Source: Oceanidesulfovibrio indonesiensis | Lineage (GTDB): Bacteria; Desulfobacterota; Desulfovibrionia; Desulfovibrionales; Desulfovibrionaceae | Length of the DNA stretch: 64,000 nt | Reading direction: 5' to 3' | NCBI RefSeq assembly: GCF_007625075.1 | Contig: NZ_QMIE01000015.1 | Span: 1 to 64,000 of the forward strand | Shown here: positions 26,584-41,874 of the stretch, in pieces | Numbering within the stretch: the first letter of the stretch is position 1 | Layout: every line of letters starts with the position of its first letter | Translations under genes and position numbers: made by a program | Notes under the pieces: generated by a model | Databases searched by the model: none | What the model was told of the DNA's origin: nothing | The model's input: the letters and a program-made list of their open reading frames with translations, nothing else

Positions 26584-26614
26584 TTACTTACCGGAGCGGG
26601 GTGGAAAGCGTCGG
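26584..26614 (-). promoter_or_regulatory. Phage promoter-like motif, copy A (before portal)
   Basis: Read on the minus strand: CCGAC (26614-26610), 12 unconserved bases, then GCTCCGGTAAGTAA (26597-26584). Four copies in the phage block keep the 12-base gap exactly. This copy lies between the terminase large subunit stop and the portal start, 75 bases before the proposed GTG start. Confidence 0.7.
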
Positions 26615-26672
26615 AGGATGCCTCCAGACAAAGTGTTGCCACTTCCGAAAAACTGGTAACGATTTGTCTGGC

Positions 26673-28196
26673 TCAGATGAAGACCGGATTGGTGAGCACC
26701 GGCTTGAGCGAGACCACCTCTTCGCCGACCGGGTCGAGGTTGCCTTCCTCCCGGATCAGCATGGCGCAGCGCACCGCGTCGATGATGTGGTCGTTGCCCT
26801 TGGAATAGATGATCTTGCCGTCCCGCAGGGTGTAGGTGTGGGTGGTGAACTGGTCTTCCACCTCCAGGTCGTCCGAGGGGAAAATGAGCTGCTTGCGCTG
26901 TAGAGCCCCGTTGATGAGGCTGGTCATCAGCTCCTTGGTCCGCTTCTTGATTTCCTTTCCGTCCCGCACCGCCAGCCGGGTCATGCCGCCGAAGTCGTAT
27001 CCCTTGAGCCTGCCTTCCAGCTCCAGCCCCTTGTACTTGTCCAGGGTGAGCAGCTCCTGAACCACGGCCAGGCCGTTGCCGCCGTTGTCCACGCCGATGC
27101 CCGCCGGGGTGTAGTAACGCTCCAGCAGCGCGATGATCTGGGCGATGTGCGGATAGGAAACGTGTTCGAGATGCACGCGCAGGATCATCTTCAGCAGCGT
27201 CCGCTCGCCGATCTCCATCTCCTGGAATACGACGATCTCGGTGGGATCGTTGGTGTAGCCCAGGTCGCCGCCGACCCAGAACTGCCCGCTGCGGGGCGTG
27301 AGGTTGAGCAGCATCTCCAGCCGGTCGTGGGCCGCTTCCTCGGTGTCGCAGTCGCGCAGCTCGGAATCGGTGATGACGATCTTCTGGTACTCCAGCAGAT
27401 CCTGCCGACAGAGGTTGAACTGCTCGACATTGAAGGCCCCATAGGAGGGCTTGCCGTGTTCACCGGCCACCTCGTGCTGCCAGCCGGAGCTGTCGCGGCC
27501 GCCGTAGAACTCCAGCAGTTCGGCCTCGCGATCCTCGGTCCACAGGGGGTTGAGCCAGGACGGCCAGCGGAACACATGGAACTGATCCGACGAGGTGAGC
27601 CGGTAATAGGTGGTGTCGCGCAGGCCGTTGGGCGTGGAGTAGATGCGTAGCGTCCCCCCGGCCTTGAGACACTGGCGCAGCGCCTTCCAGGCCCGTTCGG
27701 TCAGCCAGGCCCCTTCGTCGACCCAGACGCGGCCCACGTGCAGGGACCGGAAGGCGTCGCCATAAGCCCCGGCCGGGCGGAAATAGAGCACTGAACCATT
27801 GGTGAACTCCAGCCGGAAATAGGGTTTGCGGTGGATCTTGGGCTTGCCGTACTTGGTCAGAGCGATGCTGTTCATCAGATCCGGGTTGCTGTCGAGCTGG
27901 AACTCGATCTCCTCGATGATGGTGTCGAGGTGCCCCTGGTGCGGAGCCGCGATGAGGCCCTGGCCGCCTCGGGTGGTGAAGGCGTAATGGAGCGCGTCGG
28001 TCGAGAGCACGATGGACTTGCCCACGTCCCGGCCGTCGAGGTGGATGATGTTCTTGGCCGGGCAGCGCAGGTCCTCCACCTGGTGCAGCCAGTAGTCGCG
28101 GCCTGAGCCATCCCGGTTGTAGAGGTAGGCTTGCCCCCACAACACGGGATCGCTCAGGGTCGCCGCGAGTTTGCGCTCCTTGTCGGTTACCGCCAT
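26673..28196 (-). CDS. Terminase large subunit (TerL)
   Basis: 507 residues. The ATPase part has a Walker A-like motif (HLDGRDVGKSIVLS, near residue 55) and a Walker B (HVGRVWVDEGAWL, near 155) followed by the coupling motif TPNGLRDT. The C-terminal RNase H-like nuclease starts at WVGGDLGYTNDPTEIVVF (first Asp) and continues with VDNGGNGLAVVQ and HIIDAVRCAM. TerL pumps and cuts phage DNA at the portal. The order here (TerS-like gene upstream, portal downstream) fits, though recombinase genes on the other strand separate TerS from TerL. Confidence 0.93.
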   Translation of the reverse strand: MAVTDKERKLAATLSDPVLWGQAYLYNRDGSGRDYWLHQVEDLRCPAKNIIHLDGRDVGKSIVLSTDALHYAFTTRGGQGLIAAPHQGHLDTIIEEIEFQLDSNPDLMNSIALTKYGKPKIHRKPYFRLEFTNGSVLYFRPAGAYGDAFRSLHVGRVWVDEGAWLTERAWKALRQCLKAGGTLRIYSTPNGLRDTTYYRLTSSDQFHVFRWPSWLNPLWTEDREAELLEFYGGRDSSGWQHEVAGEHGKPSYGAFNVEQFNLCRQDLLEYQKIVITDSELRDCDTEEAAHDRLEMLLNLTPRSGQFWVGGDLGYTNDPTEIVVFQEMEIGERTLLKMILRVHLEHVSYPHIAQIIALLERYYTPAGIGVDNGGNGLAVVQELLTLDKYKGLELEGRLKGYDFGGMTRLAVRDGKEIKKRTKELMTSLINGALQRKQLIFPSDDLEVEDQFTTHTYTLRDGKIIYSKGNDHIIDAVRCAMLIREEGNLDPVGEEVVSLKPVLTNPVFI

Positions 28197-28474
28197 CAGT
28201 GCATTCCCGTCCTCAAGGCGCTGCCGAGGATGGTGCCCACCAGTTCCGTCAGGATCTGCTGCACGGCCAGGGTGTTCTTCCGGTCGTGGACAGCCTCCTG
28301 AATATCGATGATGGCCTGGTCCAACTCCGCCCAGGCCTGGTAATGCTGCTGGGCCGCTTCCAGACGGCCGAGGGCGTTCTCGATCCGTCCCGCCGCCAGT
28401 TCGGTGCCGATTTCAACCAGGGCCTCACCGGCCTGGCGAACGGCATCGCTGTTTTCCTGAAGGATCTCTTTCAT
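28196..28474 (-). CDS. Small helical phage protein, unknown
   Basis: 92 residues from the ATG at 28474 (ribosome site AGGAGGCGGGCC). Entirely helical with heptad-like spacing (LVEIGTELAAGRIENALGRL, LDQAIIDIQEAVHDRKN). It overlaps the lipoprotein gene upstream by 4 bases and the terminase gene by 1. Possibly part of a lysis or packaging gene set; no family recognised. Confidence 0.65.
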   Translation of the reverse strand: MKEILQENSDAVRQAGEALVEIGTELAAGRIENALGRLEAAQQHYQAWAELDQAIIDIQEAVHDRKNTLAVQQILTELVGTILGSALRTGMH

Positions 28475-28743
28475 TGGCCCGCCTCCTGGTTCGAGCCGTT
28501 GGCCCACTGGTCAAGTGCGTCCACGGCGGTCTGCAGGCGCAGACCGACTCCGGTCAGGCGCTCGGCGTCCGGGTGGCCGACCTCGAGCAGGGCCTTGTTG
28601 GCCTCGGTCACGTACTCGGGCGTGTGGCGGTTGACGGTGGCCACCGCCGACTGGATCTGGGCCGGAGGCCGGTAGGTGGCGCAGCCGGTCATGATCCCGG
28701 CCAGGACCAGCGGGATGGTCCATTCGAGGGTCTTCTTCAACAT
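28471..28743 (-). CDS. Small lipoprotein (phage-encoded)
   Basis: 90 residues starting at the ATG at 28743 (ribosome site AAAGGAG). A signal sequence (WTIPLVLAGIMTGC) with a Cys directly after a small/Gly residue resembles a lipobox, so the mature protein would be lipid-anchored at Cys20. The rest is soluble and helical. Phage lipoproteins of this size next to other small genes often act in lysis (Rz1/spanin) or in superinfection exclusion; neither can be decided here. No holin or endolysin is seen in the window. Confidence 0.7.
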   Translation of the reverse strand: MLKKTLEWTIPLVLAGIMTGCATYRPPAQIQSAVATVNRHTPEYVTEANKALLEVGHPDAERLTGVGLRLQTAVDALDQWANGSNQEAGQ

Positions 28744-28883
28744 GTTGATCTCCTTTGGGTTATGGGTTTGGGGAACATGCAGAAAGATCTCTGCAAACAC
28801 TTGATTTCCAACGAAATAGAAGCGTCATTGGATGTGACGCGGGATGGTCCCGTATCCACGAAAACCGGAACCGGAGGCAGGCC

Positions 28884-29078
28884 ATGACCTACGACAGAAA
28901 CCGCCAGCAGGCACTCAAGGCGTACCGAGAAAAGCAGGAGAACATCGTCCGGCTGATCGAGGGCATTCGCGGCAAGCTCGAAGCGGACGCGAAGCAGCCG
29001 GACATCACCTGGGCGAGCGTCGGCTCCCTCGGCCACGTCGAGGAACTGCTGCGGGAGCTGGACGAGTTCCTGTCCTGA
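28884..29078 (+). CDS. Small protein upstream of the recombinase pair
   Basis: 64 residues from the ATG at 28884 with CCGGAGG as ribosome site. Charged, helical (NRQQALKAYREKQENIVRLI, SLGHVEELLRELDEFL). It opens the rightward operon that continues with the two recombinase genes 33 bases later, so it may be an excisionase-like or accessory factor; no DNA-binding motif is obvious. Confidence 0.6.
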   Translation: MTYDRNRQQALKAYREKQENIVRLIEGIRGKLEADAKQPDITWASVGSLGHVEELLRELDEFLS

Positions 29079-29111
29079 ACACACCGGGCCACCGACAAAG
29101 GAGACATCGAC

Positions 29112-29486
29112 ATGACCGAATGCACAGTGCATCAAGCCGCCGAGGCTTTCATCGGCCACCTGCGGGAATCCGGAAAGAAAGAGCGGACCCTCTACACCTA
29201 CCGGAAGGACCTCGACGTGGTTGAGTCCTTCTTCGGCGGGGATCGCCAGCTCGCCGAGATCCGGCTTCCCCAGGTCGGCAAGTTCTACAAGTCCGACCTG
29301 CTGCTCAAACTCCCCGACGGCAAGGAGCGGGCTGAACGCACCATCGCCAAGACCGTCCGGGTGTTCCGCATGATGATGGTCTGGGCCAGGGAATCGGGGC
29401 GCATCGAGGAGCTGCCGCTGCCCAAGAGCACACCCATGGGCCACAGCCGGGTGAAGGAGTCCAGCGATGAGCAACCGAACGGCTGA
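29112..29486 (+). CDS. SAM-like N-terminal recombinase domain protein (no catalytic domain)
   Basis: 124 residues that look like the core-binding (SAM-like) domain of tyrosine recombinases: TVHQAAEAFIGHLRESGKKE, RTLYTYRKDLDVVESFFGG, FRMMMVWARESGRIEELPLP. The catalytic domain with its Arg/His/Tyr set is absent, so it cannot cut DNA alone. It overlaps the full recombinase gene downstream by 20 bases, so the two are made together. It may be a DNA-binding partner of the recombinase or the remnant of a second recombinase. Confidence 0.7.
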   Translation: MTECTVHQAAEAFIGHLRESGKKERTLYTYRKDLDVVESFFGGDRQLAEIRLPQVGKFYKSDLLLKLPDGKERAERTIAKTVRVFRMMMVWARESGRIEELPLPKSTPMGHSRVKESSDEQPNG

Positions 29487-30381
29487 CCTCGACCTGACGG
29501 CCGCGACAGAGGCGTTCTGTGCCAGCCTGTCGGCCGAAGGACGCTCCCCTGCGACCATAACCGCATACCGCCGGGACCTCGCCCTGGTGGCCCGCGTGGC
29601 CGGGGAGCTGGCCCCGGGCATCGTCTGCCGGGCGGTCACGGCCGGGCTCCTCGACCAGGTGTTCTCCGCCGGGGCGGTCATCGAGAGTGAGCGAGGCCCA
29701 CGCTCGGCGGCTTCGCTCCATCGGATGAATGCGGCGGTGCGGGCCTTTTTCGCCTGGGCTGTCGAGGCGGGCGTGGTCGATGACAATCCGTCCCGGTCAA
29801 TCCGCATGCATCGGCTGCCGAGAAAGCTGCCGGTGTTCCTGACTGCCGCCGAAAAGAAACGGCTCCTCAAGGAGCTCAAGGGGCGGACCGACTTCTCCGC
29901 GCTGCGCGACCGCGCCATGATCGAGGTGCTGCTGGGCACCGGGATCAGGCTTGGCGAGCTGGCCGCGCTCGACATGGATGACATCGACCTCGACGCCAAA
30001 CATCTGCGGGTGCGGGCCAAGGGGAATGTGCCGCAGGTCAAGTTCATCAAGACCGACCTCCGCACATTGCTTCGCCGTTACCTGGCCGAGCGCCGTCGAC
30101 ATGGCCGCCCGGAAATGGAAGCCCTGTTCCTGTCGAACCGGGACGGCAGACTCTGCCAGCGGCAGATTGCCAACCGGCTCGCCCACTGGCTGCGGAAGGC
30201 CGGGATCGAAAAGGAACTGACGCCGCATGGGCTGCGGCACACCTTCGCCACCCACCTCTACGGCGCGACCAACGACCTGCTCGTGGTGCAGCGGGCATTG
30301 GGGCATCGCGACGTGTCCACCACCCAGATCTACACCCACCTCGTGGACGGCCAGCTCGAGGAAGCCCTCGAACGCCTCTGA
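29467..30381 (+). CDS. Tyrosine recombinase / integrase (XerC/D-like)
   Basis: 304 residues. N-terminal SAM-like domain (ATEAFCASLSAEGRSPATIT), then the catalytic domain with all active-site positions visible: Arg in GTGIRLGELAAL, Lys in RAKGN, HGLRHTFATHL (His-x-x-Arg), GHRD (His) and the nucleophile Tyr in TTQIYTHL. Expected to perform site-specific strand exchange for integration, excision or dimer resolution. The coding strand is opposite to the terminase genes around it. A repeat array starts 200 bases downstream. Confidence 0.93.
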   Translation: MSNRTADLDLTAATEAFCASLSAEGRSPATITAYRRDLALVARVAGELAPGIVCRAVTAGLLDQVFSAGAVIESERGPRSAASLHRMNAAVRAFFAWAVEAGVVDDNPSRSIRMHRLPRKLPVFLTAAEKKRLLKELKGRTDFSALRDRAMIEVLLGTGIRLGELAALDMDDIDLDAKHLRVRAKGNVPQVKFIKTDLRTLLRRYLAERRRHGRPEMEALFLSNRDGRLCQRQIANRLAHWLRKAGIEKELTPHGLRHTFATHLYGATNDLLVVQRALGHRDVSTTQIYTHLVDGQLEEALERL

Positions 30382-30401
30382 TCCTTCCTGACCCGACGAT
30401 G

Positions 30402-30431
30402 GGAGCGGCCTGGGCTGCTCCTGTTTTCGTT
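30402..30431 (+). terminator. Possible terminator after the recombinase
   Basis: GGAGC (30402-30406) can pair with GCTCC (30417-30421), followed by TGTTTTCGTT. It lies 21 bases after the recombinase stop. Short stem, so modest confidence. Confidence 0.4.
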
Positions 30432-30582
30432 GGGCGAGACAGTGTCGAAGACAGTGAATGACAGTGCCCGCAGAAGAACACATCCGCCGATGATGAATGA
30501 TCATGACGATAGGTCTCAGCCTCCCGGGCGGAGCGGGAAATATCGATTGACCGGAATTTCTCCTTCGCTGTCTGTCGGCTGC

Positions 30583-30821
30583 ACATGGCTATAACTGCTT
30601 GGCTTATGCGCTCCGGGCGCGGAACACACATGGCAATATCCGCTTGGCTTATGCGGTGGCTGCTGGCGAAGGAATGGCTGTTTGCGGGGCTTGGCCGGTT
30701 CTGCCTGGGGCTCGACATGCCCATATTTACTTGGGTTCTGTGAGAGAGCTTCGGCGTGAACATGCCAATATCTACTTGGGTTATGCGGCTCGGCTTATGC
30801 GCACACATGCCAAGCGGATAT
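30583..30821. repeat. Array of four 28-bp repeats plus inverted half copy (candidate recombinase sites)
   Basis: Four related 28-base units at 30583-30610, 30628-30655, 30715-30742 and 30760-30787 follow the pattern ACATG-S-C-W-ATAT..., CTTGG-S-TTATGCG. Spacing start to start is 45, 87 and 45. An extra GGCTTATGCG lies at 30792-30801. An inverted piece, GCCAAGCGGATAT at 30809-30821, is the exact reverse complement of 30636-30648 in unit 2. The array fills the gene-free stretch between the tyrosine recombinase and the TerS-like gene. Likely arm- or core-type binding sites for the recombinase; not a CRISPR because units are close, unequal in spacing and partly inverted. Confidence 0.75.
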
Positions 30822-30981: not shown

Positions 30982-31482
30982 TTATCCGCAATTCTTTCCG
31001 CGTTTCTTGCGGCCGGAGGTTTTCGTGGCCGGAGCATTGGCGGCCTCAGCCACCTTCTCGAGCAGAGCCGCCGCCCATTCCGCCGGAGAGGTCTGGGGAC
31101 CTTGCGGCTCCTCACCCTCGCGGGCGATCTTGGTGGTCTTGAGATCCTTCATATGGCAGCGGATCATCCGGTCGAGGCTCTCGGCCGCTTGGGTGTTCCC
31201 TTCGATCTGGGCACGGACCAGCTTGACGGAGTAGACGCCCACCAGTTCGACCTGAAGGAAGTCACTGGACTTGTTGAACACGAAGTCCTGGTTGAGGCGC
31301 TCGATGATCACGTCGAACATGACCTTCTCTTCCGGGGTCAGGCAGCGGTCGGCGAAGATGCCGTGCGTAAGCCGATACTGGTTGCCCTCGGGTGCTCCGG
31401 CCCCGCGCTTGGGCGGTTCGGTCTTGCCCTCGTTGCGATGCCAACGGTCCAGAATAGCTTTGTCGGGCTTGCTCAAAGGCAT
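30982..31482 (-). CDS. Terminase small subunit-like phage protein
   Basis: 166 residues with a basic, flexible N-terminus (GAGAPEGNQYRLTHGIFADR), which is common in small terminase-type proteins, then a helical core (EEKVMFDVIIERLNQDFVFN, SLDRMIRCHMKDLKTTKIAR) and a Lys-rich tail. TerS proteins bind the packaging site and load TerL. It follows the HTH gene at 31573 and its promoter-like motif, and lies upstream of TerL with the recombinase module in between. Assignment is from composition and context. Confidence 0.6.
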   Translation of the reverse strand: MPLSKPDKAILDRWHRNEGKTEPPKRGAGAPEGNQYRLTHGIFADRCLTPEEKVMFDVIIERLNQDFVFNKSSDFLQVELVGVYSVKLVRAQIEGNTQAAESLDRMIRCHMKDLKTTKIAREGEEPQGPQTSPAEWAAALLEKVAEAANAPATKTSGRKKRGKNCG

Positions 31483-31572
31483 GTCGATATCCTGCTAAAA
31501 CTGATTTTTTATGCCGGGTTGCGGGGCGGGAGGCCGATTTGGCCTCCAAACGCGCTCCCGCCGGTTCAGGGG

Positions 31573-31603
31573 TTACTTACCGGAAGCGACGGCCAACTGT
31601 CGG
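31573..31603 (-). promoter_or_regulatory. Phage promoter-like motif, copy B (before TerS-like gene)
   Basis: Minus strand: CCGAC (31603-31599), 12 bases, CTTCCGGTAAGTAA (31586-31573); one base differs from the other copies. It is embedded in the 3' end of the HTH gene, whose TAA stop forms the end of the motif, and lies 91 bases before the TerS-like start codon. Confidence 0.6.
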
Positions 31604-31851
31604 TCCCGATCCTGATTTCGTTCGGCGGCGATGATCTGATTGACCCGGCGGGTGGTCACTCCAGCGAGGTTGGAGATCTCCTGGCTGCTGATCCCCTGCA
31701 GATGAAGGGCAAGCACCAGGTCGCGACGCTCCCGGTAAAACCGGCTCGGTGCCGGAACCCAGAGAATCCCGGTGTAGTGCTTCTGGATCTGCTCGAAGAG
31801 TTCCTCGGGCAGGACATCCTTGGCGTTGGCGTAGCGTTTCTTTTTCTTCAC
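31573..31851 (-). CDS. HTH protein, CD3324-like
   Basis: 92 residues with a GTG start at 31851 (ribosome site GGAGGATTG). The N-terminus (YANAKDVLPEELFEQIQKHYTG) matches the CD3324-type opening. The C-terminal half is a clear helix-turn-helix (LVLALHLQGISSQEISNLAG, TTRRVNQIIAAE). Probably a DNA-binding regulator or packaging-site recognition protein. Its last codons and stop overlap promoter-like motif copy B. The gene upstream ends 3 bases before its start. Confidence 0.75.
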   Translation of the reverse strand: MKKKKRYANAKDVLPEELFEQIQKHYTGILWVPAPSRFYRERRDLVLALHLQGISSQEISNLAGVTTRRVNQIIAAERNQDRDRQLAVASGK

Positions 31852-31854
31852 GTC

Positions 31855-32628
31855 TCAATCCTCCACTTTCTTCATCCACGGCTGCGGCACCTCCGGGTTG
31901 TAGAATCGCAGCGTGCTGGGACGCCCGGACTTCGGCCCGTGGATAATTTCGATAGAACGCTCGGTGACCTCGCCAATCTCCTGATCGCCATCGACGAAAC
32001 AGACCAGGCCGTAGTCCTCGCCGCAGGGAAACCGAAACCGGCCCTGGTTCTGATAGAGGCGTGCCTCGGACCAACCCTTGGCCATGGCCTCCTCACGGAT
32101 GGTGTCGACCTTGGCGACAGCCTGGGAAGTCACCGGCTGCCTATGGCGTCCGGCTGCGTGTTGAGGGTAAATCCAGACCTTTCTGGGAACTTCGACGGGT
32201 TTCTTCTGGGGTTCGGGACGAAGCGCGGGTGGCCGGTAGTTCTTCGGGGAAAAGGACTGCAGTACATCCTGGAGGCTTTCCTTGCCGAACTCCCGGATGG
32301 CCAGCTCCTGCAGGGCGTTGAATCGCTGCCGCAGCGTGTTCCAGGCAGCCTCGGGGAGCTTTCCGGCCTTGTGCGCGGCTTGGGCGGTGACCATGCGGGA
32401 ACGTAGCCAGGCGAAGTATTCAGGCGACAGACGGCGGAACACTTTGCCGTCGCGCTCGAAGTCAGTCTCTTTGGTTCGAACCCAGGCGAGTTCTTTGATT
32501 TCAAGATCTGTGGCGACGAAGACCACATGGCAGGATTCTGGTGACGAAAGGATGTCTGGGCTTGTTCGATTTGCGGATTGGGCGGCATCCGTGCAGAGGT
32601 GACGGATCATGGTGGTCAACAGGCTCAT
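31855..32628 (-). CDS. Phage protein of unknown function
   Basis: 257 residues, start ATG at 32628 with GGAG before it. Middle segment FRRLSPEYFAWLRSRMVTAQ and AAWNTLRQRFNALQELAIRE is helical; the C-terminal part (EEAMAKGWSEARLYQNQGRF, GLVCFVDGDQEIGEVTERSI) looks like a small alpha/beta domain. I do not recognise a family, though similar proteins occur near primase and terminase genes in mobile elements. Motif copy C lies 39 bases upstream. Confidence 0.7.
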   Translation of the reverse strand: MSLLTTMIRHLCTDAAQSANRTSPDILSSPESCHVVFVATDLEIKELAWVRTKETDFERDGKVFRRLSPEYFAWLRSRMVTAQAAHKAGKLPEAAWNTLRQRFNALQELAIREFGKESLQDVLQSFSPKNYRPPALRPEPQKKPVEVPRKVWIYPQHAAGRHRQPVTSQAVAKVDTIREEAMAKGWSEARLYQNQGRFRFPCGEDYGLVCFVDGDQEIGEVTERSIEIIHGPKSGRPSTLRFYNPEVPQPWMKKVED

Positions 32629-32666: not shown

Positions 32667-32697
32667 TTACTTACCGGAGCCTGACCATGGGTGTCGG
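32667..32697 (-). promoter_or_regulatory. Phage promoter-like motif, copy C
   Basis: Minus strand: CCGAC (32697-32693), 12 bases, GCTCCGGTAAGTAA (32680-32667). It lies between the iteron cluster and the gene starting at 32628. Confidence 0.7.
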
Positions 32698-33180: not shown

Positions 33181-36100
33181 CTATTTTGCTGATTGAATCG
33201 TATAGAGTTTGGTTCCGCGATGGTTCTGCCCTATTTCAATCTCGAACCCTGCCCCCCGGATGGTCTCCAGATCATTCACCAGCCGCTGTGCGAATTGCCG
33301 GGATGAGTCCATCTCGAAACGCAGACCGAAATCCCGAGCAACTCGCTTGAGGGCCACGAACAGGTCCCGGGAAAGAACCTCCCGCAAACTTCCATCGTCT
33401 TCAAAGCGGATCTGATACCGTTGGACGAACTCCTGAAGAGGGTCCGTCCGGCGGTCTCCGTAAACATCCCGCGCATTGGTTTCGGTCGCGGTGCGCCACG
33501 CGTTGAACAAGGTCGCCAGCGCCGTCGCCGTATGATTTGAATCCCGGGCCGTATCCCGGCTGGTCCGGTTGAGCGACTCGATCTGCCGGGCGAATGCCGG
33601 TGCCAGCTCTCCCAACCCCTGTTCCATCTCTTCACGGCTCGATCCGGCCAGCATCATCAGGTACATCAAGCTGAGATATTCGTTGCAGCGGCGCTTGTCG
33701 TGGCTCCCCAGTGCCTCGTGCAAAAGCTTCATGGCATGGCGTCTCATGCCGTCTCGCATCATCGCCAGCACCACCCGGGTCCGCTTAATGATGGCCGAAA
33801 TGATGAGGTCGCGATGCTGCTGGATGCCTGCGACGACCTCGGATTCGATGAAACAGTCATTGCCCTGGTTGGCGACATCGAAGTTGATCACAAAACTGCG
33901 TGATTGGATCTCCGAAAGCTCCCCGCACAGCGGCTCGATGCCGGTGGTGTTCAGCAGGCATTTGGTCCGCTCGGTGATGGTCTCGCTGTCTGTGCCGCTC
34001 TTGCGTTTCTCCTTGGCGATGCCGGTGATGCTGGTCAGCATGAAGGTGGTCAGATCCTCGGTCATCTGCTTGACCTCGATGTTGTCGAGGACGATGAGCG
34101 GGTTCTGCGAGCCATCGGTGTAGTTCGCCGCGTCGGTGGCTTTCTTGTGCTGGGGCTCGCCGTAAAGCAGCGTCGACGTGATCTTGCTGGCGGTGGTCTT
34201 GCCCGATCCGGCCGAACCCTCGAAGCGGGTCATGGGCCGCGTCCCGGCGAAGTCGATCAGCAGGAAACAGGAGAGCCAGGAAAGGATGAGAAATCGATCC
34301 CCCTGCGGACAGGTCATATTGCCCACCAGCAGATCGACCAGGAGCCGGTCCGCCTCTTCGAGGTCGGCGTCGGGCAGGAATTTCAGCGGCTTCATCTTGC
34401 GCGAGCCGTCCAGGATGATGCCGTCCTCGTTGCCGCCGTTCTTCATGATCTGAATCTCGTCCGGGGTGATCTTGGCGATCTCGTGCTCCGGATTGTTCAG
34501 GTTGAAATAGACGGTGTAGGAGGCCACATCGGTGTGCAGCCAGGAAAAATGGTCGCGCACCTGGCCACGGATCATCGCCAGGCTGGGCAGTACCTCGAAA
34601 AATGTCCGTCCGCCGCCCGTGGTCGGCACCATGCCCGTATGCTTATAGAGCATGGCCGCGTAATGGCGCTTGCGGCCCCGGTCCGGTGAATCCATCCAAT
34701 AGATGGCGTTGTCGAAATACATGAACGGCTCGCCCGGCAGGGTGTGAAAGAACTGGGCACCGTTGGAGGTGAACCAGTCGTAGGCGGCCTCGGCGGCCAG
34801 GGTGTAGTCGGGAGCGCCGTTCTCCAGTTCCGTGTCGATCAGCACCTCGTCAACCCGGGCGCGGCATGATCCGGGCATCGCGCCGGACATCCGCTTGGCC
34901 TTTTTCTTTTCGTTGCGGAACTCGACCTTTCGGTCCTTCTGGATGGCGCGGATTTGTTCCTTCAGGGTGGCCATGGAGACGCCACCACCGATGCGCTCCT
35001 GCACCAGCTTCAGCAGACGGGCCTGTTCCAGCGGAGACTGCTCGGAAATCTCCCCCAGGATCGGCTCGAGCAGGCGGTTGCGTTCCTCCTCTTCAGCGCC
35101 CTCGGGCAGCGAGCGCACGCCGAATTCGATGGGCGTGCTGGCCTCGGCGAGCAGACGTTCGAAATCCTCCCGGGTATGCCCGGCGGCAATGTAATCGTTG
35201 ACGTCGATCTTTGCGGTGGCGAGAAGCGCCTCGGCCGCCTGGATTTCCTCGGCGGGCCGTCCAGCCAGCAGCTTGGCCAATTCCTTCGGCCCCACGCTCG
35301 CCATCAGGCCGAAGCGTTCGGTCAGCTCCTGCCGGGCCGAGATCTGTGTCTCCGACAAGGGCAGCGTCACCAGGCGGGTGTCGATTTTGTGTTCGGCCAG
35401 GGTGCGGGCGGTTTGCAGCGCCCCCTTGAGACCGGCTTGGGAAAGTTCGTTGTCCTGACAGATGTAGACGGTTTCGACGCCGCGCAGCTTGGGGATCAGG
35501 CGCTCCCAATCGGCGGCCCGGATGCGGACGGTGACCGGCGATACGGTGGGCAGGCCCAGTTGCATCAGCGCCAGGCAATCGGTCACCCCCTCGGTGATGA
35601 TCACCTTGCCGGGCCGGGCCAGCAGACAGTCCTCGTTGAACAGCAGCGCGTTGTTGATGAAGTCGGCGACGTAGGGCCGCTGGTGTTCGTCGTGAACCGG
35701 CAGTTTCTTGTATTTCCCTTGCTCCCAGCCCACGTCCGGGGTCCACGGCGTCTTGCGGCCGATCATGAACACCACCCGGCCACGGCTCCAGTAGGGAAAG
35801 ACGATCCGGCGCTCGAAAAATGGCGTCAGGCCGTCCTGGCTGGTGGGACGGAAAGCGCCGGTGGCGGCGAGCTCCCGCTTGGAGAAACCGTCCTCACCCC
35901 CGGTCAGTTGGACGACCGCGCCGGATGCGTTGTCCGCGTAGCCGATCAGGAGATCGTCGATGATCTCCTCGCTCAGGGCGTATTTGGATTTCAGCCAGTC
36001 GAGGACCTCCGGAGACTCCTTGAGTCTGGCGTGGTAAAGCCTGGCCAGCGAGGTCAGCGCGTCCTTGACCCGCAGTTCGAAGGCGCGGTCGGCCTCCGTC

Positions 36101-36483
36101 TGGGCGAGACGCTCCTGGCTGAGGCCATAGCGCGACAGCGGCGGCAAGCCCGCCTTCTTGGCGAGATAGTCCCGGGCCTGACGGTGGCTGTCCGGCATCG
36201 GACCGGATTGCCCGGCGGTGACCGAGCCCGTCTGAATGAACTCCACGAGCTGCAGCACATCGCCGCCGACTCCGCAGCCGAAGCAGTACCAGCCCTGCTT
36301 GTCGAGCATCACGTGCAGCGACAGGCGCGACTGACTTTGATGGTTGGGGCAGTCGCACATCAAGCGCTGGCCGGTCTCCTGGGTGATCCGTCCCGGCAGG
36401 AGTTCCCGGGCCACGTCACCGATGTCCATCTCGGTGACGAGCCGGTAATACTCCCTGACGTTATCCGTTCCGCCCATACTCAT
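33181..36483 (-). CDS. Phage primase-helicase (CHC2 zinc finger, Toprim, P-loop ATPase)
   Basis: 1100 residues. Residues ~40-75 carry a DnaG-type zinc ribbon (CDCPNH ... CFGCGVGGD). Residues ~290-400 form a Toprim domain with the EGVTD glutamate and a following acidic motif (VYICQDNEL). A C-terminal ATPase begins with Walker A GSAGSGKTTASK near residue 760 and continues with ALIVLDNIEV-like Walker B (NPLIVLDNIEV). The protein should synthesise primers and unwind DNA for phage replication. It overlaps the RecD2-like gene by 4 bases and is the last gene of the leftward replication operon, next to the iteron cluster. Confidence 0.9.
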   Translation of the reverse strand: MSMGGTDNVREYYRLVTEMDIGDVARELLPGRITQETGQRLMCDCPNHQSQSRLSLHVMLDKQGWYCFGCGVGGDVLQLVEFIQTGSVTAGQSGPMPDSHRQARDYLAKKAGLPPLSRYGLSQERLAQTEADRAFELRVKDALTSLARLYHARLKESPEVLDWLKSKYALSEEIIDDLLIGYADNASGAVVQLTGGEDGFSKRELAATGAFRPTSQDGLTPFFERRIVFPYWSRGRVVFMIGRKTPWTPDVGWEQGKYKKLPVHDEHQRPYVADFINNALLFNEDCLLARPGKVIITEGVTDCLALMQLGLPTVSPVTVRIRAADWERLIPKLRGVETVYICQDNELSQAGLKGALQTARTLAEHKIDTRLVTLPLSETQISARQELTERFGLMASVGPKELAKLLAGRPAEEIQAAEALLATAKIDVNDYIAAGHTREDFERLLAEASTPIEFGVRSLPEGAEEEERNRLLEPILGEISEQSPLEQARLLKLVQERIGGGVSMATLKEQIRAIQKDRKVEFRNEKKKAKRMSGAMPGSCRARVDEVLIDTELENGAPDYTLAAEAAYDWFTSNGAQFFHTLPGEPFMYFDNAIYWMDSPDRGRKRHYAAMLYKHTGMVPTTGGGRTFFEVLPSLAMIRGQVRDHFSWLHTDVASYTVYFNLNNPEHEIAKITPDEIQIMKNGGNEDGIILDGSRKMKPLKFLPDADLEEADRLLVDLLVGNMTCPQGDRFLILSWLSCFLLIDFAGTRPMTRFEGSAGSGKTTASKITSTLLYGEPQHKKATDAANYTDGSQNPLIVLDNIEVKQMTEDLTTFMLTSITGIAKEKRKSGTDSETITERTKCLLNTTGIEPLCGELSEIQSRSFVINFDVANQGNDCFIESEVVAGIQQHRDLIISAIIKRTRVVLAMMRDGMRRHAMKLLHEALGSHDKRRCNEYLSLMYLMMLAGSSREEMEQGLGELAPAFARQIESLNRTSRDTARDSNHTATALATLFNAWRTATETNARDVYGDRRTDPLQEFVQRYQIRFEDDGSLREVLSRDLFVALKRVARDFGLRFEMDSSRQFAQRLVNDLETIRGAGFEIEIGQNHRGTKLYTIQSAK

Positions 36484-38708
36484 TCAGCCTCCGCGACACG
36501 GGCGAAATCGTCTTCCGCGTGCTGGGCGGCGTCCAGGAACAGGGGCAGGAAGGTCCGGCGGTCATCCACCTGGCAACGCTTGGCGCAATTCTGGATGCCC
36601 CAATGGTCACCCAGGACAATGGCGGTGCGCCGGGCGCGGGTCACCCCGGTGTAGAGCAGATTGCGGTGGTGCATGAAGGAATGCGCCTTGTGGACCACCA
36701 CCACGGCGCAGGGGAACTCGGAACCCTGGGTTTTGTGGATGGTGAGCGCATAGGCGAGCTGCAGGTCCTGAAGGTCGGGCGAACCCTTTTCCATCTCCAC
36801 CGGCATGCCGTCGAAGTCGATGACCAGGGTGCCGTTCGCGAGGACATCGACCACATAGCCGATGGCACCGTTCATCACATTCAGGTCGTAATTGTTCCGG
36901 GTCTGGATGACCTTGTCGTGTTTGAGAAACGGAGCGCGGCGGCCCATAGCGACCGGCGGTACCTCGGCGTTCCAGAGCTTGCGCTGGATGAGCCGCTGCA
37001 GTTCCTCGTTCAGTTCCTTGGTGCCGAGCGGCCCCTTGTGGGTCGGCGTCAGCACCTGCACGTCCTTGATGATGTCGAACCCCAGGGCGTCGAGCCGCTC
37101 CTGAAACAACTCCAGCAGGAACGAGCGTGCCGCCATCGGATCTGTGAACTGATCCACCAGATACCAATCCCGGCATCCAGATACCGACGCCTCGCTGGTC
37201 TTGCGCACTTCGCCCTTGAGAACGGCGGTGCAGTTCTCCTTGAGGACGCCAGCCTGACGCACGACCTTGTCGAGGATGACCGTAGGAATGGAGCGTGTCT
37301 GGATCAGATCGCGCAGGATGTTTCCGGGTCCCACCGGCGGAAGCTGGTTGTGGTCACCGACCAGCAGCACCGTGGTCTGCGACAGGTCAACCGCCTCGAA
37401 CAGGTGCCAGGCCAGCGGCACGTCCACCATCGAAAACTCGTCGACCACCAGAACATCAGCATCTATGGGGTTCTCCTTGCTACGCGAGAAACCCTTGCCG
37501 TCATAGCCGAGCAGGCGGTGAATGGTGGTGCCGCTACGGCCGCTGACTTCCTCCAGGCGCTTGGCCGCCTTGCCGGTCGGCGCGGCGAGCACGACCTCCA
37601 GGTCGCTCTCCTCGCAGATGGTGTTGATGACCGAGATGGTGTAGCTCTTGCCCGAACCGGCTCCACCCGAGATCAGGCTGATGCTGTGCTGGAGAGCCGA
37701 GCGGACCGCTTCGAGCTGCTTCTCGTTCAGCGTCGCCGCGCAGCGCCGAATCAGGGCATCGAGCTTCTTGACGGACTGGAAATGCGGGTTGGGTGTTTCG
37801 GCCTGGCCGAACAACGAGGCCAGCTCCCGCTCCATGCGGACGATCTCCGGCAGAGCGACCACGAAACGTCCGCCGTGGGAATCGCAGGAAAGCGCCTGTT
37901 CTTCGATGAGCGCGTCGAGGGCGCTCTCGATACGGACCCGGCTGTCCAAGGCATCCATGACCAGCAGCAGGTTGGCCTGATCCACCAGATCCTCGTATTC
38001 GATCCAGCAGTGACCATTGTCCAGGGCTTCACGGACGCAGAAATTTAACCCAGCGCGGATACGAGGGGTGTGGTCCTTGGGGGTGCCCAGCTTGCGGGCG
38101 ATCTTGTCGACCTTCTTGAAGCCGAATCCCCGGATCTCCCGAATGAGGATGTACGGGTCTTCCTTCAGGATATCGAGGCAGTTGCCGCCGAGCCTTTCGA
38201 CCAGGGTGGTGACCTGATGATGGGTCAGACCGAATGCCGACAGCCAGGCCATGACGGCGTTGACGCTGCGGTTCTTCAACCATTCGTCACGCAGCCGCTT
38301 GGCCGCCTCCAGGGGCAGCCGAGCTTTGAGCGCGATGCGCTCGGGGTCGTTCAGAAGGGTTTCTTCAAAGGCGTCGCCGAAACTCTCGACGATCAATCTG
38401 GCCTTGGCCGGACCAATGCCCTTGATCTCCGGATGGTTGGCCAGATAGTGGATCAGCCCCTCCGGATCGAGTTCGAGGTCGTGCTCCATCCCGTCGACCT
38501 TGAACTGACGGCCGTATTTGGGATGGGTGGCCCACGACCCGAGCAGGACCACAGGCTGATTTTCCCGGGCGAACAAATTGCCCGCGAACTGGACTTCCTC
38601 ACCGGTCGGGGTGAGCAGTCGGCCTGCGGAGAACTTGGGTCCGGCATAGTAAACGCGCTCTATTCTTCCCCGGAGTCGCGCCGGGTTACTCTCATTTCTT
38701 TTTGGCAT
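36480..38708 (-). CDS. RecD2-like SF1B DNA helicase
   Basis: 742 residues from the ATG at 38708 (ribosome site GGAGGATCG). An OB-like N-terminal domain and helix-hairpin-helix motifs (HPEIKGIGPAKARLIVE) are followed by the helicase core: Walker A GGAGSGKSYT (near residue 345), DEFSMVD Walker B, GDHNQLPPVGPG motif III and the C-terminal YALTIHKTQGSEF and YTGVTRARR motifs. This is the RecD2/TraA pattern. RecD2 unwinds 5'-3' and helps recombination or fork processing. It overlaps the ERCC4 nuclease gene by 49 bases. Confidence 0.93.
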   Translation of the reverse strand: MPKRNESNPARLRGRIERVYYAGPKFSAGRLLTPTGEEVQFAGNLFARENQPVVLLGSWATHPKYGRQFKVDGMEHDLELDPEGLIHYLANHPEIKGIGPAKARLIVESFGDAFEETLLNDPERIALKARLPLEAAKRLRDEWLKNRSVNAVMAWLSAFGLTHHQVTTLVERLGGNCLDILKEDPYILIREIRGFGFKKVDKIARKLGTPKDHTPRIRAGLNFCVREALDNGHCWIEYEDLVDQANLLLVMDALDSRVRIESALDALIEEQALSCDSHGGRFVVALPEIVRMERELASLFGQAETPNPHFQSVKKLDALIRRCAATLNEKQLEAVRSALQHSISLISGGAGSGKSYTISVINTICEESDLEVVLAAPTGKAAKRLEEVSGRSGTTIHRLLGYDGKGFSRSKENPIDADVLVVDEFSMVDVPLAWHLFEAVDLSQTTVLLVGDHNQLPPVGPGNILRDLIQTRSIPTVILDKVVRQAGVLKENCTAVLKGEVRKTSEASVSGCRDWYLVDQFTDPMAARSFLLELFQERLDALGFDIIKDVQVLTPTHKGPLGTKELNEELQRLIQRKLWNAEVPPVAMGRRAPFLKHDKVIQTRNNYDLNVMNGAIGYVVDVLANGTLVIDFDGMPVEMEKGSPDLQDLQLAYALTIHKTQGSEFPCAVVVVHKAHSFMHHRNLLYTGVTRARRTAIVLGDHWGIQNCAKRCQVDDRRTFLPLFLDAAQHAEDDFARVAEAE

Positions 38709-39142
38709 CTCGCGATCCTCCGGTGAAAACGTGTCAGGTACTCCTCGACAAAACGGCAGGCGGCCTGCCGGTCCGAGCAGAAGTAGACGGGGACACCGAA
38801 GTCGACGACGATGGAGGCGACCGTTCCGATCAGCGCGTGCGGGTGGGCATCGCTGCGGTAGCGGCCGTCGACCAGATCGCGAAAGTTGCACTCGACAACC
38901 ACGCAGGCGGATTCGTAGGCAGAGAGCTTTTCCAACTCGCGGTGGAACCGCTTTCGCCCCCGGATGACGGTGGAGACGAAATCCGTCAGGGATTTACGCT
39001 CCACCGCCACCCGTTCCTCGAGGCCGACCAGTGAGTAATCACCGGCGGGCAGCGCTTTGCGAACTGCCGAAACCTTGTCTGTATCGAAGCTGTAGGGCTC
39101 CTGTTCGCGGGTGTCGACGACAACGGTGATCCGGTCCATCAT
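38660..39142 (-). CDS. ERCC4-type nuclease
   Basis: 160 residues spanning a single ERCC4/XPF nuclease domain: VVVDTREQEPYSF (first acidic residues), LPAGDYSL and VAVERKSLTDFV (the ERKxxxD signature), then CVVVECNFRDL. Such single-domain nucleases of phages cut branched or flapped DNA. Encoded between the DUF669 protein (1-base overlap of start and stop) and the RecD2-like helicase, which suggests cooperation in recombination-dependent replication. Confidence 0.9.
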   Translation of the reverse strand: MMDRITVVVDTREQEPYSFDTDKVSAVRKALPAGDYSLVGLEERVAVERKSLTDFVSTVIRGRKRFHRELEKLSAYESACVVVECNFRDLVDGRYRSDAHPHALIGTVASIVVDFGVPVYFCSDRQAACRFVEEYLTRFHRRIARCQKEMRVTRRDSGEE

Positions 39143-39615
39143 CAGAACGGGATCATGTCGTCCATCGCCGCGCCGGGAGCCCCGGCATCATCGGCCATGA
39201 CAATGCGACGGTTGAAGTAGATGTTCTCGTTTTCACCGCGAGTGCGCTTGGTCACCTCCAGCTTGATGTTGAGAAGCTGCTCGAGGTGGCCCGGCAGGTC
39301 GGAGAGCTTCTGAAGCTGCAGCCCGCAGGTGTAGAGGTCCTGCTTGAGCCACTTGATGTTCTCGTTGCTGGCCATGACGTTGTTGCGCCAGAGCAGACGA
39401 CCCTTGTGGGTCGGCGCGAGAATGCGCAGAGTCCATTTGAGCATGGGATTGCCCGAGGTCTGGGCGCGGGTCAGTTCGACCCGGTCGACGTTGACCTGGT
39501 ACTTGCCGTCGGGGACGGCCTCGAACTCACGTTCCTCGACTTCGGCGGTTTCGAAGGCGTCGTCGAACTGCGCCAGGTCGAGGTTGCTGCTGGATTGGTT
39601 TTCGTAGTGTTCCAT
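39142..39615 (-). CDS. DUF669 phage recombination protein (SSB-like tail)
   Basis: 157 residues of the DUF669 type: AVPDGKYQVNVDRVELTRAQ, GNPMLKWTLRILAPTHKGRL and NIKWLKQDLYTCGLQLQ. It ends in MDDMIPF, an acidic tip very like the C-terminal peptide by which bacterial SSB recruits partners. It probably coats single-stranded DNA and recruits the co-encoded ATPase and nucleases. Good ribosome site (AAGGAG) before the ATG at 39615. Confidence 0.85.
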   Translation of the reverse strand: MEHYENQSSSNLDLAQFDDAFETAEVEEREFEAVPDGKYQVNVDRVELTRAQTSGNPMLKWTLRILAPTHKGRLLWRNNVMASNENIKWLKQDLYTCGLQLQKLSDLPGHLEQLLNIKLEVTKRTRGENENIYFNRRIVMADDAGAPGAAMDDMIPF

Positions 39616-39627
39616 GGTCGGATCTCC

Positions 39628-40398
39628 TTACTGTTGAGGTTTCGCCGCCGCACTCGCGGTCGGCTCCGGCTTCGGCCGGGCGGCACTCGCCGCAGCTCCG
39701 GCTGCCGTGTTGTTGAAGGCTTTAACGAAGCTCGAAAAATCGAGGGGGATGACTTCGGGGAGTCGGCCGGTGCGGTCACCAGCGTCGTAGTTGGGACTGG
39801 GCTTGGTGCGCATCACGCGTTGCCAGACCGGCTTGCCGTCCTCGCCGGTTTTCATGTCCAGGTCGCAGAACAGGATCAGGTCCACCAGACCGGTGACCAG
39901 CTTCCGCGCCTTTTCCGGCAGCGTCGGCACGATGCGGGTGTGTTTGCCGGTCCGGGTCTCGATGTCCCGCTCCTGGGAGTGGGAAATCAGGATCAGCCCG
40001 TAGGGCAGGAACGCGAGCTTGTTGATGACGCGCTGGAACTCGTTGTTGATCAGCGCGTAGCCCTTGCCGTAGCCCAGGTCGGATTCGTGCTCGATCTTGA
40101 ATTTCTTGCAGACGTAGTCCGAGCACATCTTGTAGGCGTTATCCACCGTGTCGACGACGATGGTCTTGAACTCGTGCTTGCCCTCGGCGATTTCGGCGCA
40201 GGCCTGCAGAAGGTCGTCCCAGCAGGTGATCGGGGTCTGAAACACCTCCAGGGCGTTCAGGCCCGGCTCGGTCGCCAGGAACAGTGCGTCATCGGCCTTG
40301 GAGCACCAGGTGCTCTTGCCGATCTTGCTCGGGCCGTACACCAGGGCGGTGAGGTCCGAGAGCGTGTGTTTGGGTTTGCTTTTGGTCTTGGGAAGCAT
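39628..40398 (-). CDS. Sak4-like phage recombination ATPase (AAA_24)
   Basis: 256 residues, RecA-core-like. Walker A is GPSKIGKST near residue 22; Walker B-like FKTIVVDTVDNAY near 80; then LILISHSQERDIETRTGKHT, typical of phage ATPases in the Sak4/AAA_24 group. Sak4 proteins promote single-strand annealing together with an SSB-type partner, here probably the DUF669 protein directly downstream. Ribosome site AAGGAG precedes the ATG at 40398. Confidence 0.82.
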   Translation of the reverse strand: MLPKTKSKPKHTLSDLTALVYGPSKIGKSTWCSKADDALFLATEPGLNALEVFQTPITCWDDLLQACAEIAEGKHEFKTIVVDTVDNAYKMCSDYVCKKFKIEHESDLGYGKGYALINNEFQRVINKLAFLPYGLILISHSQERDIETRTGKHTRIVPTLPEKARKLVTGLVDLILFCDLDMKTGEDGKPVWQRVMRTKPSPNYDAGDRTGRLPEVIPLDFSSFVKAFNNTAAGAAASAARPKPEPTASAAAKPQQ

Positions 40399-40424
40399 GG
40401 CTTCGTCTCCTTATGGTTGGGATT

Positions 40425-41441
40425 TCAAAACACCGGAGCGGCGTCTTCACCGGCTCCGTCCCGCAGCTCTTCGTGCGGGGCGATCCGTTGGAAATGGTTT
40501 TCGATGACGTTGGGGTTGCCGCCCGAGCGGCAGAGCTGGAAGTAGGCGCAGGGCCGTCCGTACTGGAAGCAGTAGCTGGTGTTGCGGTAGAAGGTGTTGC
40601 GCCGACGGGCGTCGAGCATGGCCTTGGAGAGCTCCCACAGCTCCGCCCGCAGTTCCTCGAACTGGTCGCGGGAGATGTAGAGCACCTCGCGATGGAACAT
40701 GCCCGGCTCGAGGTACTTCTCCTGGAGCCGCTGCTGAAAGGTGTCGTCGTCCTCCGCCAGCTTGCGCTTGGCGCTGCTCTTGCCGGTTTTCGACTTGGCA
40801 ATCAGCTCCGCCCGGCGGGCTTCGAATTCGGCTTCGGTCTCACCTTTTCCCTGGCGCAATTTGGCCTTGACCAGGACGTTGTAGATGATGCCGCTGACCG
40901 TGATGCCGAGGGTCTGCTCCAGGTACCAGGCGTAGAGGATGATCTGGAAATCGGTCCACAGCCGCTCCAGATAGCTGGCGTCGATCTGCGCGGCGGTTTT
41001 GTGTTCCAGCAGAAAATACTGGCCATCCTGACGGACGATGCCGTCCACCTTCCCGGCGAGAATGAAACTGCGCGAGGTCGCCCCGGTCGCCGGGTTGACG
41101 ATGGGACCTTCGAAGGTCTTCTCGAGCGCGACGACCTCGAACTCTTCGGCCGGATAGTGTTCCGCATAGGCGCTCATCATGGCTCGGGCGAGATGCCAGT
41201 CGGCCTGTTGATGATCGTCCTGCGCTCGGTTCGGATAGGTCCGGTCGATGTGGTCGAGGACCTTGGCCAGATCCCGCTCGCCGTGCCAGCACTCCAGGCA
41301 GTCGTGAATGACCGAGCCGAAGGCCAGATTGGGGTCGCGTTCGAGCGGCACCAGCTCGTCGATGTAGCGCCACTTGCAGGCCATGCGGCAGTTGCGGAAC
41401 AGCCGCCACATGGAATAGGTGGTGGTCATCAGCTCGCTCAT
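40425..41441 (-). CDS. PD-(D/E)XK nuclease, RecB/Cas4-like
   Basis: 338 residues from the ATG at 41441, which overlaps the upstream stop by 4 bases. Active-site motifs are AFGSVIHDCLECW (His), GKVDGIV (Asp) and FLLEHKTA (Glu-x-Lys). Cys residues early (CRMACKWRY) and late (YCFQYGRPCAYFQLC) are spaced as in Cas4-like exonucleases that hold an iron-sulfur cluster. Likely the 5' resection nuclease of the phage recombination set. A Lys-rich insertion (SKTGKSSAKRKLAEDDD) lies before the C-terminal cluster. Confidence 0.87.
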   Translation of the reverse strand: MSELMTTTYSMWRLFRNCRMACKWRYIDELVPLERDPNLAFGSVIHDCLECWHGERDLAKVLDHIDRTYPNRAQDDHQQADWHLARAMMSAYAEHYPAEEFEVVALEKTFEGPIVNPATGATSRSFILAGKVDGIVRQDGQYFLLEHKTAAQIDASYLERLWTDFQIILYAWYLEQTLGITVSGIIYNVLVKAKLRQGKGETEAEFEARRAELIAKSKTGKSSAKRKLAEDDDTFQQRLQEKYLEPGMFHREVLYISRDQFEELRAELWELSKAMLDARRRNTFYRNTSYCFQYGRPCAYFQLCRSGGNPNVIENHFQRIAPHEELRDGAGEDAAPVF

Positions 41442-41773
41442 ACCGCCACCCCCGCTTCGGCGGCGGGCGCTGCACGATGCTTGGAGGCACAGGCGCAACC
41501 CGACGGCTGGGATCGTTCGATCAGGACCGAGCGTTCGCCGTATTCCTTGGTGGCGAAGCCAGTGAAGATGCGGGCGAGGTCGCTGCCGACATCGGTGGAG
41601 GCGTCGATCACGCAGGTGCGGCGGGCCTTGTCCAGATTGAACCGGCTCTCCATCCGCACACGGGAACGGCCATGCAGGCTTTCGACGGCCAGCATCGCCA
41701 GCATGAAAGTGTCTTCCAGTTCCTGGGCCGGGACCGACTCGTCAAAACGGTACTTGTAGGTGTCGTGAGTCAT
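41438..41773 (-). CDS. Small protein opening the replication operon, unknown
   Basis: 111 residues from the ATG at 41773 (ribosome site AGAGGAG). Middle part EDTFMLAMLAVESLHGRSRV, SRFNLDKARRTCVIDASTDV and LARIFTGFATKEYGERSVLI suggests a compact alpha/beta domain; the C-terminus has a Cys pair (GCACASKH). First gene downstream of motif copy D and coupled to the nuclease gene. Not recognised. Confidence 0.65.
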   Translation of the reverse strand: MTHDTYKYRFDESVPAQELEDTFMLAMLAVESLHGRSRVRMESRFNLDKARRTCVIDASTDVGSDLARIFTGFATKEYGERSVLIERSQPSGCACASKHRAAPAAEAGVAV

Positions 41774-41843
41774 GGTTGAACTCCTCTTTTGTTCAGGTTT
41801 TGATTTCCGAGGCCCCGGATAGCCGCACCATGCGGCACGGTGC

Positions 41844-41874
41844 TTACTTACCGGAGCCGGAGTCGATGCGTCGG
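41844..41874 (-). promoter_or_regulatory. Phage promoter-like motif, copy D (before replication operon)
   Basis: Minus strand: CCGAC (41874-41870), 12 bases, GCTCCGGTAAGTAA (41857-41844). It begins 4 bases after the stop of the sigma-like gene and stands about 70 bases before the first gene of the replication operon. Confidence 0.7.

Follow-up and report, generated by a model that had tools for sequence, protein, structure and literature searches.

A 31-nucleotide (nt) bipartite motif that recurs in a prophage of Oceanidesulfovibrio indonesiensis is very probably a phage-specific promoter read by the sigma factor that is encoded directly beside it. The prophage lies in the 64,000-nt stretch of contig NZ_QMIE01000015.1 that was analysed here (positions 1 to 64,000 of the forward strand; hereafter the window), and its sigma-like gene, encoding 194 amino acids (aa), is followed at once by one copy of the motif. 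Minus-strand CCGAC-N14-TCCGGTAAGTAA occurs four times in the prophage with no mismatch, and a fifth, slightly diverged site lies on the plus strand, so that several bipartite elements with the spacing of a -35/-10 pair precede phage genes. The sigma gene and the five sites, in which HTH stands for helix-turn-helix and ORF for open reading frame, are as follows.

41878-42462, minus strand: sigma-factor gene, 194 aa, sigma2 and sigma4 (PHROG 1740, E = 6.3e-24)
41844-41874, minus strand: site 1, CCGAC-N14-TCCGGTAAGTAA, 3 nt past the sigma stop codon, heading recombination and replication genes
32667-32697, minus strand: site 2, preceding a 257-aa gene with no function assigned (31855-32628)
31573-31603, minus strand: site 3, overlapping the end of an HTH gene and preceding a TerS-like gene
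26584-26614, minus strand: site 4, preceding the portal gene and a MuF-type head gene
46307-46337, plus strand: site 5, CCGACACTTC..CTCGGTAGGTAA, divergent, upstream of an 80-aa ORF, a DUF2924 gene and a serine recombinase gene

When up to three mismatches were allowed, the window held five matches to the pattern as compared with 0.10 expected, and none of 100 shuffles reached five. Across the 4.29-Mb assembly of 330 contigs, exact copies were found at the four minus-strand places alone, and the backwards control nowhere; at three mismatches, six matches to the motif stood against nine to the backwards control. The significance of the motif therefore rests on its exactness and clustering. The second block by itself is weak, with seven window matches at two mismatches vs 1.52 expected and 1 of 100 shuffles reaching seven. 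The two extra matches at three mismatches are located on another contig and at 46307-46337 of the window. Mismatch counts alone are insufficient to establish the latter, given the nine matches of the backwards control; it was counted as the fifth site because it has the blocks CCGACACTTC and CTCGGTAGGTAA, a nearly identical counterpart in the relative G099 and a site in the same divergent place in G100. Its three departures from the consensus, at positions 20, 21 and 27, fall where relatives also vary. Site 3 supplies the last codons and the stop of the 92-aa HTH gene (31573-31851) and is thus not in free intergenic space. Inverted-repeat-like sequence was seen by eye after some sites.

A preliminary description of this DNA had listed the four minus-strand copies, whose coordinates and strand proved correct with no mismatch, and had proposed a regulon inside the element, in line with the lack of any exact copy elsewhere in the assembly. 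Two of its distances are amended here: the gap between the sigma gene and site 1 is 3 nt instead of 4 (stop codon at 41878, site at 41874), and the window sites lie 35-90 nt, not 39-91 bases, from the start codons behind them. That all copies face the same way holds for the four minus-strand sites, the plus-strand site having been missed.

To what extent the motif is found in other phages was determined by scanning viral contigs with the pattern, which gave at least 120 stretches. Among 91 distinct contexts of TCCGGTAAGTAA, CCGAC stood exactly 14 nt upstream in 89 and a one-base variant of it in the other 2, most of these loci having been fetched by a pattern that itself fixes the spacing. Forty chosen motif records contained 1-10 matches each (three mismatches or fewer), on one strand in 37 of the 40, and the backwards control gave none. 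The sigma profile matched nine of these records. For the remaining 31, the orthologous place of the most upstream listed site was assigned by a spacer identity of at least 10/14, which succeeded in 29 records, all of which stop short of the place where the sigma gene is expected; two were unclassifiable.

Via the sigma profile, 46 loci in named genomes (including Desulfobulbus, Desulfosarcina, Ectothiorhodospira, Pontiellaceae and Planctomycetota) and 26 viral loci were retrieved, 16 of the latter already known. The profile contained L024 and L127 from the motif loci, and L227 and L230 are the same contigs. L156 (wrong orientation) and L186 and L205 (sigma gene cut by the contig end) were dropped before the counts, and the 16 known viral loci were not repeated; 54 loci were analysed, with sigma identities from 98 to 30%. 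In most of them both blocks were present after the sigma gene at the same spacing, 6-20 nt (38 in L195) beyond where the match ends. The fitted site model reads [CG]CGACRnnTY-N9-(T)CCGGTANGTAA, with position 27 free, and as a self-trained model it scored at least 15 bits in 45 of the 54 loci. When each of 29 sigma groups (at 70% identity) was left out in turn, the post-sigma site was significant at P≤0.05 in 25 and at P≤0.01 in 23, as judged against 2000 windows drawn at random from the same locus, true sites still included. In L206 and L209, one near-canonical CCGAC..TCCGGTAAGTAA site was also observed before the sigma gene, beside the phage-specific sites; this could be either a leftover or another kind of promoter.

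Where the phage is divergent, so are its sites, and some such phages carry the same altered form more than once. For example, variants were repeated in L216 (CGGGC..CGGCATA(A/G)GTAA), L204 (GCCGGTATGTAC), L197 (TCCGGTAGGTAT), L223 (CCCGGTAGGTGA) and L206 (TGGGGTATGTAT), while the other loci of this search for extra copies gave no good further copy. With sites called by the core only (GAC..TY..GTAnGT), 100 sites were found as compared with 6 for the mirrored core. At positions not used for calling, the average difference was 0.63 within phages vs 2.21 between phages (57 sites, 20 phages), and none of 2000 permutations was as tight; among the divergent phages alone it was 1.44 vs 3.12 (34 sites, 16 phages; again 0 of 2000 permutations). 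The version of the promoter-like site thus co-varies with the phage that carries it.

Longer relatives were then compared for the number of sites, with matches of up to three mismatches listed and clear three-mismatch outliers omitted. Relatives that look intact harbour 6-10 copies (10 in G103, 10 in G099, 9 in G101, 9 in the Pontiellaceae prophage G104, whose sigma factor is 63% identical, and 6 in G105) and the most distant ones 1-3, and the backwards control gave zero or one match in each region. The genes behind the sites of G101 include those for a methyltransferase, a neck protein, the tape-measure region and the baseplate, and G083 and G084 each have one site within an ORF of tape-measure size. 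The chromosome of Desulfosarcina alkanivorans PL12 carries two such prophages, with 8 and 10 sites, and these differ from each other: TCCGGTAAGTAA is the second block in 8 of the 10 sites of one and in 1 of the 8 sites of the other.

A related layout was also found in Wolbachia phage WO, whose sigma factor is 25-27% identical to that of the window. It was first noticed by eye downstream of the sigma gene, and a search then gave three copies each for MN180251 (GCGGACGAATT..CGTACATATAT) and KX522565 (TTGGACGAATT..CCGTGTATATAT), each phage having its own version. In both, one copy lies 30-43 nt after the sigma gene, one before a divergent operon and one elsewhere. The KX522565 set recurs in HQ906662, and HQ906664 has two copies; in the stretches of MW788656 and HQ906663 examined, the site was not found. 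In 60 mononucleotide shuffles the layout did not occur. The WO sigma subunit has been suggested to direct the polymerase to replication genes, as stated in PMC3173496, from which the word 'promoter' is absent; neither 'sigma' nor 'promoter' occurs in PMC9203015.

The 194-aa protein resembles sigma factors composed of sigma2 and sigma4, as judged from PHROG 1740 and from structural matches to a predicted model. The AlphaFold model, built from 37 relatives, shows three helices in its N-terminal part (12-83) and four in its C-terminal part (122-187), joined by a linker, the relative placement of the sigma2 and sigma4 parts being unreliable. By this model, regions 2 and 4 are present and sigma1.1 and sigma3 absent, which is the layout of extracytoplasmic function (ECF) sigma factors, and the best Foldseek matches in the PDB include SigH, AlgU and SigE (best E = 5e-4). 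All 50 entries listed by VIA-align belong to sigma factors or polymerase holoenzymes (Z 8.4-9.5).

At the level of the phylum, 395 genomes were surveyed for the exact pattern (with D at position 27) and for the sigma factor, the best eight sigma candidates per genome being scored. The pattern was found in 15 genomes and its control in none; sigma homologues were found at E<1e-20 in 12 genomes and at E≤1e-3 in 68, mostly as short matches. Exact motif and strong sigma homologue coincided in eight genomes, and the four genomes with the sigma factor and without the exact motif have variants of it directly after the sigma gene.

On these grounds, a sigma switch can be proposed. The sigma2-sigma4 protein would replace the host sigma factor on the host RNA polymerase after induction and would bind the sites, with CCGACR (followed two nt on by a loose TY) as the -35 element and CGGTANGTAA as the -10 element. 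With T25 of the 31-mer taken as -12, CCGACR would fall at -36 to -31, and transcription is predicted to start 5-9 nt past GGTAAGTAA. The sigma factor would thereby turn on the replication and recombination genes, the 257-aa gene and the terminase and portal/head genes; from the divergent site it would turn on the integration module, and in intact relatives also the methylase, neck, tail and baseplate genes. The preliminary description had likewise suggested that the neighbouring sigma factor reads a phage-specific class of promoters. That suggestion gains support from the restriction of the motif to the element, from its constant spacing and from related phages, where, in 25 of 29 sigma groups, it stands beside the sigma gene with its spacing unchanged. 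A related phage with the motif and without the sigma gene, which the description had named as a test, was not clearly seen among the phage records (9 of 40 with sigma, 29 ending early and 2 unclassifiable), but there is a chromosomal exception, in that seven of the 395 surveyed genomes have exact sites without a strong sigma homologue (G286, G397, G477, G285, G254, G152 and G185).

These seven genomes are one of several results that weigh against the promoter reading. Moderate extra matches (11/15) in relatives are often no commoner than those of permuted patterns, so that the near-perfect ones alone count. A significant post-sigma site was absent in four of the 29 groups (L211, L217, L219, which has a partial match, and L220). 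Four relatives with 18-66 kb each are poor in sites, namely G113 with two and G112, G116 and G120 with the sigma-adjacent site alone; among WO stretches, two of six (L293 and L296) lack the site, and WO copies differ by one base in their spacing. As for the protein, its Pfam scores are below the curated cut-offs (Sigma70_r2, 22.8 vs 24 bits; r4_2, 19.6 vs 25.7 bits) and the confidence of the AlphaFold model is moderate (pLDDT 76, pTM 0.44). The VIA-align scores fall in a range (Z below ~13) in which matches of helical proteins can be due to chance, and the root-mean-square deviations are 13-24. Finally, adjacency and covariation show that the motif co-evolves with the phage, not that the sigma factor binds it.

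Among other explanations, the one that survives best, itself improbable, is that a different phage regulator, such as the 92-aa HTH protein, uses the sites as operators to activate a host-sigma promoter. The HTH ORF has a weak match to PHROG 836 (annotated 'late transcriptional activator', E = 9.7e-6), and its gene bears a site at its own end. Yet homologues (E≤1e-3) are absent in 6 of 16 phage units (G113, G116, G112, G082, G065 and G064), four of which have one to three sites by the core pattern; moreover, the motif lacks palindromic symmetry, its two blocks are arranged like a -35/-10 pair and a copy is positioned behind the sigma gene. The HTH protein, or a Mor/C-type activator, was rejected as the reader of the sites, its gene not having been found in four site-bearing phage units. 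Slightly less probable again is another RNA or DNA signal, such as an antitermination, processing, replication or packaging site, that happens to precede gene blocks. At 35-90 nt before start codons the window sites could be transcribed, some are followed by the inverted-repeat-like sequence mentioned above, and one site in each of two relatives falls within a long tail ORF; on the other hand, 14 free bases separate the two fixed blocks, and the sites face the same way as the genes behind them, the divergent ones pointing into divergent genes. The least likely is that a host alternative sigma factor reads the sites and the phage sigma factor is unrelated to them, as the seven genomes without a strong sigma homologue might suggest. 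Against it, nearly the same sequence lies behind the phage sigma gene in Desulfobulbus, Desulfosarcina, Ectothiorhodospira and Pontiellaceae prophages, the own genome has no further exact copy and the two prophages of one Desulfosarcina chromosome differ in their second blocks.

The element that carries the sites extends leftward from near the tmRNA gene at 49721-50080, which is likely its integration site because it adjoins the recombinase gene. Behind site 1 follow genes for a 111-aa ORF, an exonuclease, a Sak4-like annealing protein, a single-stranded DNA-binding protein, an ERCC4 nuclease, a helicase and the primase. The other features are listed below.

33181-36483, minus strand: primase, in the block behind site 1 (library matches)
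31573-31851, minus strand: 92-aa HTH ORF (weak match to PHROG 836, as above)
30982-31482, minus strand: TerS-like gene, downstream of site 3 (PHROG 1889, E = 0.0039)
26673-28196, minus strand: terminase large subunit (library matches)
25001-26548, minus strand: portal protein, downstream of site 4 (library matches)
46710-47303, plus strand: DUF2924 protein, behind site 5
47296-48882, plus strand: serine recombinase (integrase), behind site 5 (PHROG 95, E = 1.7e-128)
49721-50080, minus strand: tmRNA gene, likely integration site
21162-21178, strand not applicable: junction at which ~30 kb appears to be deleted in comparison with G101
42463-42621, minus strand: structured leader RNA of the sigma gene, a pseudoknot (read by eye)
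46375-46505, plus strand: similar leader RNA downstream of site 5, before the integration genes (read by eye)

The HTH gene was not found in more distant relatives. At the junction 21162-21178, ~30 kb of G101 is absent while the flanks are 96% identical, and a MuF gene is fused to another ORF, which yields a 1909-aa ORF (19272-25001); the absent stretch carries five late sites in G101. The window prophage is probably defective, or else the assembly is wrong at this point. An amidoligase-like gene is located at 17800-18801 on the minus strand (PHROG 2443, E = 3.6e-95).

The sigma gene itself is preceded by a conserved leader of 150-190 nt before its start codon, in which helix TGGGTGTC/GACACCCA crosses another helix, hence its designation as a pseudoknot. 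Its structure was read by eye from the same 22 chosen sequences in which pairing was then counted (L211, L216, with masked letters, and L224 were left out); 85.4% of the cells are paired, compared with 36-52% when the structure was slid along and with none of 500 shuffles reaching this value. For the crossing helix the figure is 98.3%, and four of its eight pairs show changes on both sides; for the leader, the count of double-change pairs and that of pair types were reached by 58 and 43 of 500 shuffles, respectively. A hairpin around the Shine-Dalgarno sequence, with 65% pairing, is weakly supported. No Rfam family matched at its gathering score (best E = 1.1), and by string search and eye the leader was not seen in L189, L204, L207, L212, L213, L217-L220 and L223-L225. 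As far as sequence can tell, the leader is a candidate riboregulator.

Among the genomes with sites and no strong sigma homologue, four of the seven (G286, G397, G477 and G285) have tandem sites, as does the sigma-bearing G309. In G286, G397, G477 and G309 the tandem sites are ~70 nt apart and precede a 62-aa ORF (MDINDLF...), and in G397, G477 and G285 they lie within ~0.4 kb of tmRNA. One of these units is located as follows.

L267 (G286:C1:720001-737000), 8275-8604: tandem sites and 62-aa ORF; also in L268, L269, L276 and L297-L311

The 62-aa ORF was found in 13 of the 395 genomes (E≤0.01), 10 of which have no strong sigma homologue, while G309, G421 and G456 have the sigma factor; 10 of its 14 distinct loci have an upstream site (two mismatches or fewer) and 6 of the 14 are beside tmRNA. 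Defence genes (HamB, the BREX genes BrxC, PglX and BrxHI, IetAS and ZacBC) are near this orphan unit in the three genomes looked at (G286, G397 and G309). Type I restriction-modification genes are near it in all three, and G286 adds BREX, IetAS and Hachiman. Furthermore, the recombinase, DUF2924 protein and 80-aa ORF recur at 96-99.7% identity in G286 (G286:C1:700001-720000, L285) beside the BREX and IetAS genes, whereas the sigma, portal, TerL, primase, HTH and 257-aa genes were not found in the 57 kb of G286 examined; this segment is possibly a satellite or a derived defence element. In G254 (L271 and L272), an amidotransferase-like start of class II, MCGLAGVIFG, was seen by eye after the motif.

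Neighbouring genes bear on the origin of the orphan unit. In G309, TerL fragments (94.5% over 55 aa and 72% over 75 aa) and a weak match to the primase lie 10-15 kb past the orphan sites, and the DUF2188 gene beside the G286 sites is 96-99% identical to genes of two phages. Because of these TerL fragments and this shared DUF2188 gene, the unit may derive from old prophages rather than be purely resident. A repeat of the tmRNA 3′ end was not found near the far end of G309. That the orphan sites are the far end of intact prophages was considered and rejected: tblastn of the 62-aa ORF matched L267, L268, L269 and L276 alone and none of the phage loci searched. It is conceivable, albeit doubtful, that bacterial chromosomes listen to the phage sigma factor, which would then switch on the orphan unit, either to alert a defence island to infection or to trigger a phage satellite that relies on the same recombinase.

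Phage sigma factors that read a promoter class of their own have precedents in phages 7-11 and phiEco32 and in Xpf of PBSX. With the ECF (group IV) factors SigE, AlgU and SigH, its best structural matches, the window protein shares the sigma2 plus sigma4 layout. ECF promoters have GGAAC..GTC, unlike CCGACR..CGGTANGTAA. The 'sigma-70 subunit' of phage WO is a distant homologue with a related site layout after its gene. Xpf of the Bacillus subtilis prophage PBSX has a role in the late operon. Like the window protein, Xpf is a small, prophage-linked sigma2-sigma4 protein, and it is called a positive control factor (PMC10141391). The following comparisons draw on PMC8948821. The sigma factor SaPh711_gp47 of phage 7-11 uses late promoters of the form GTAAtg-(16)-aCTA, eight copies of which precede late genes with starts 6-9 bp from the element. 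Both systems thus combine a phage sigma factor on the host RNA polymerase (here predicted) with copies of a bipartite promoter before genes. Phage 7-11 differs in that it infects Salmonella, has another consensus and is not reported to have its promoter in common with its relative phiEco32 (sigma factors 15% identical), whereas the promoter described here is recognisable over sigma identities from 98 to about 32%. In phiEco32, gp36 recognizes tAATGTAtA promoters, six of them middle/late; this is a single element read by a sigma factor without region-4 homology, in contrast to the two blocks and region-4-like domain found here. No paper on this promoter or leader was found in the open-licence literature. 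As far as our searches show, what is new is the sequence, the placing of a promoter immediately after the sigma gene, the range of hosts and the possible host-side copies.

Phage sigma factors with promoters of their own are known from few phages, and here one sigma/promoter pair seems common to temperate phages from widely differing bacteria and, as a diverged version, to phage WO. The pair yields a list of predicted operons and start sites and a model of sigma/promoter co-evolution. If the reading of the orphan sites is true, it would also mean a host-side promoter that possibly senses phage infection.

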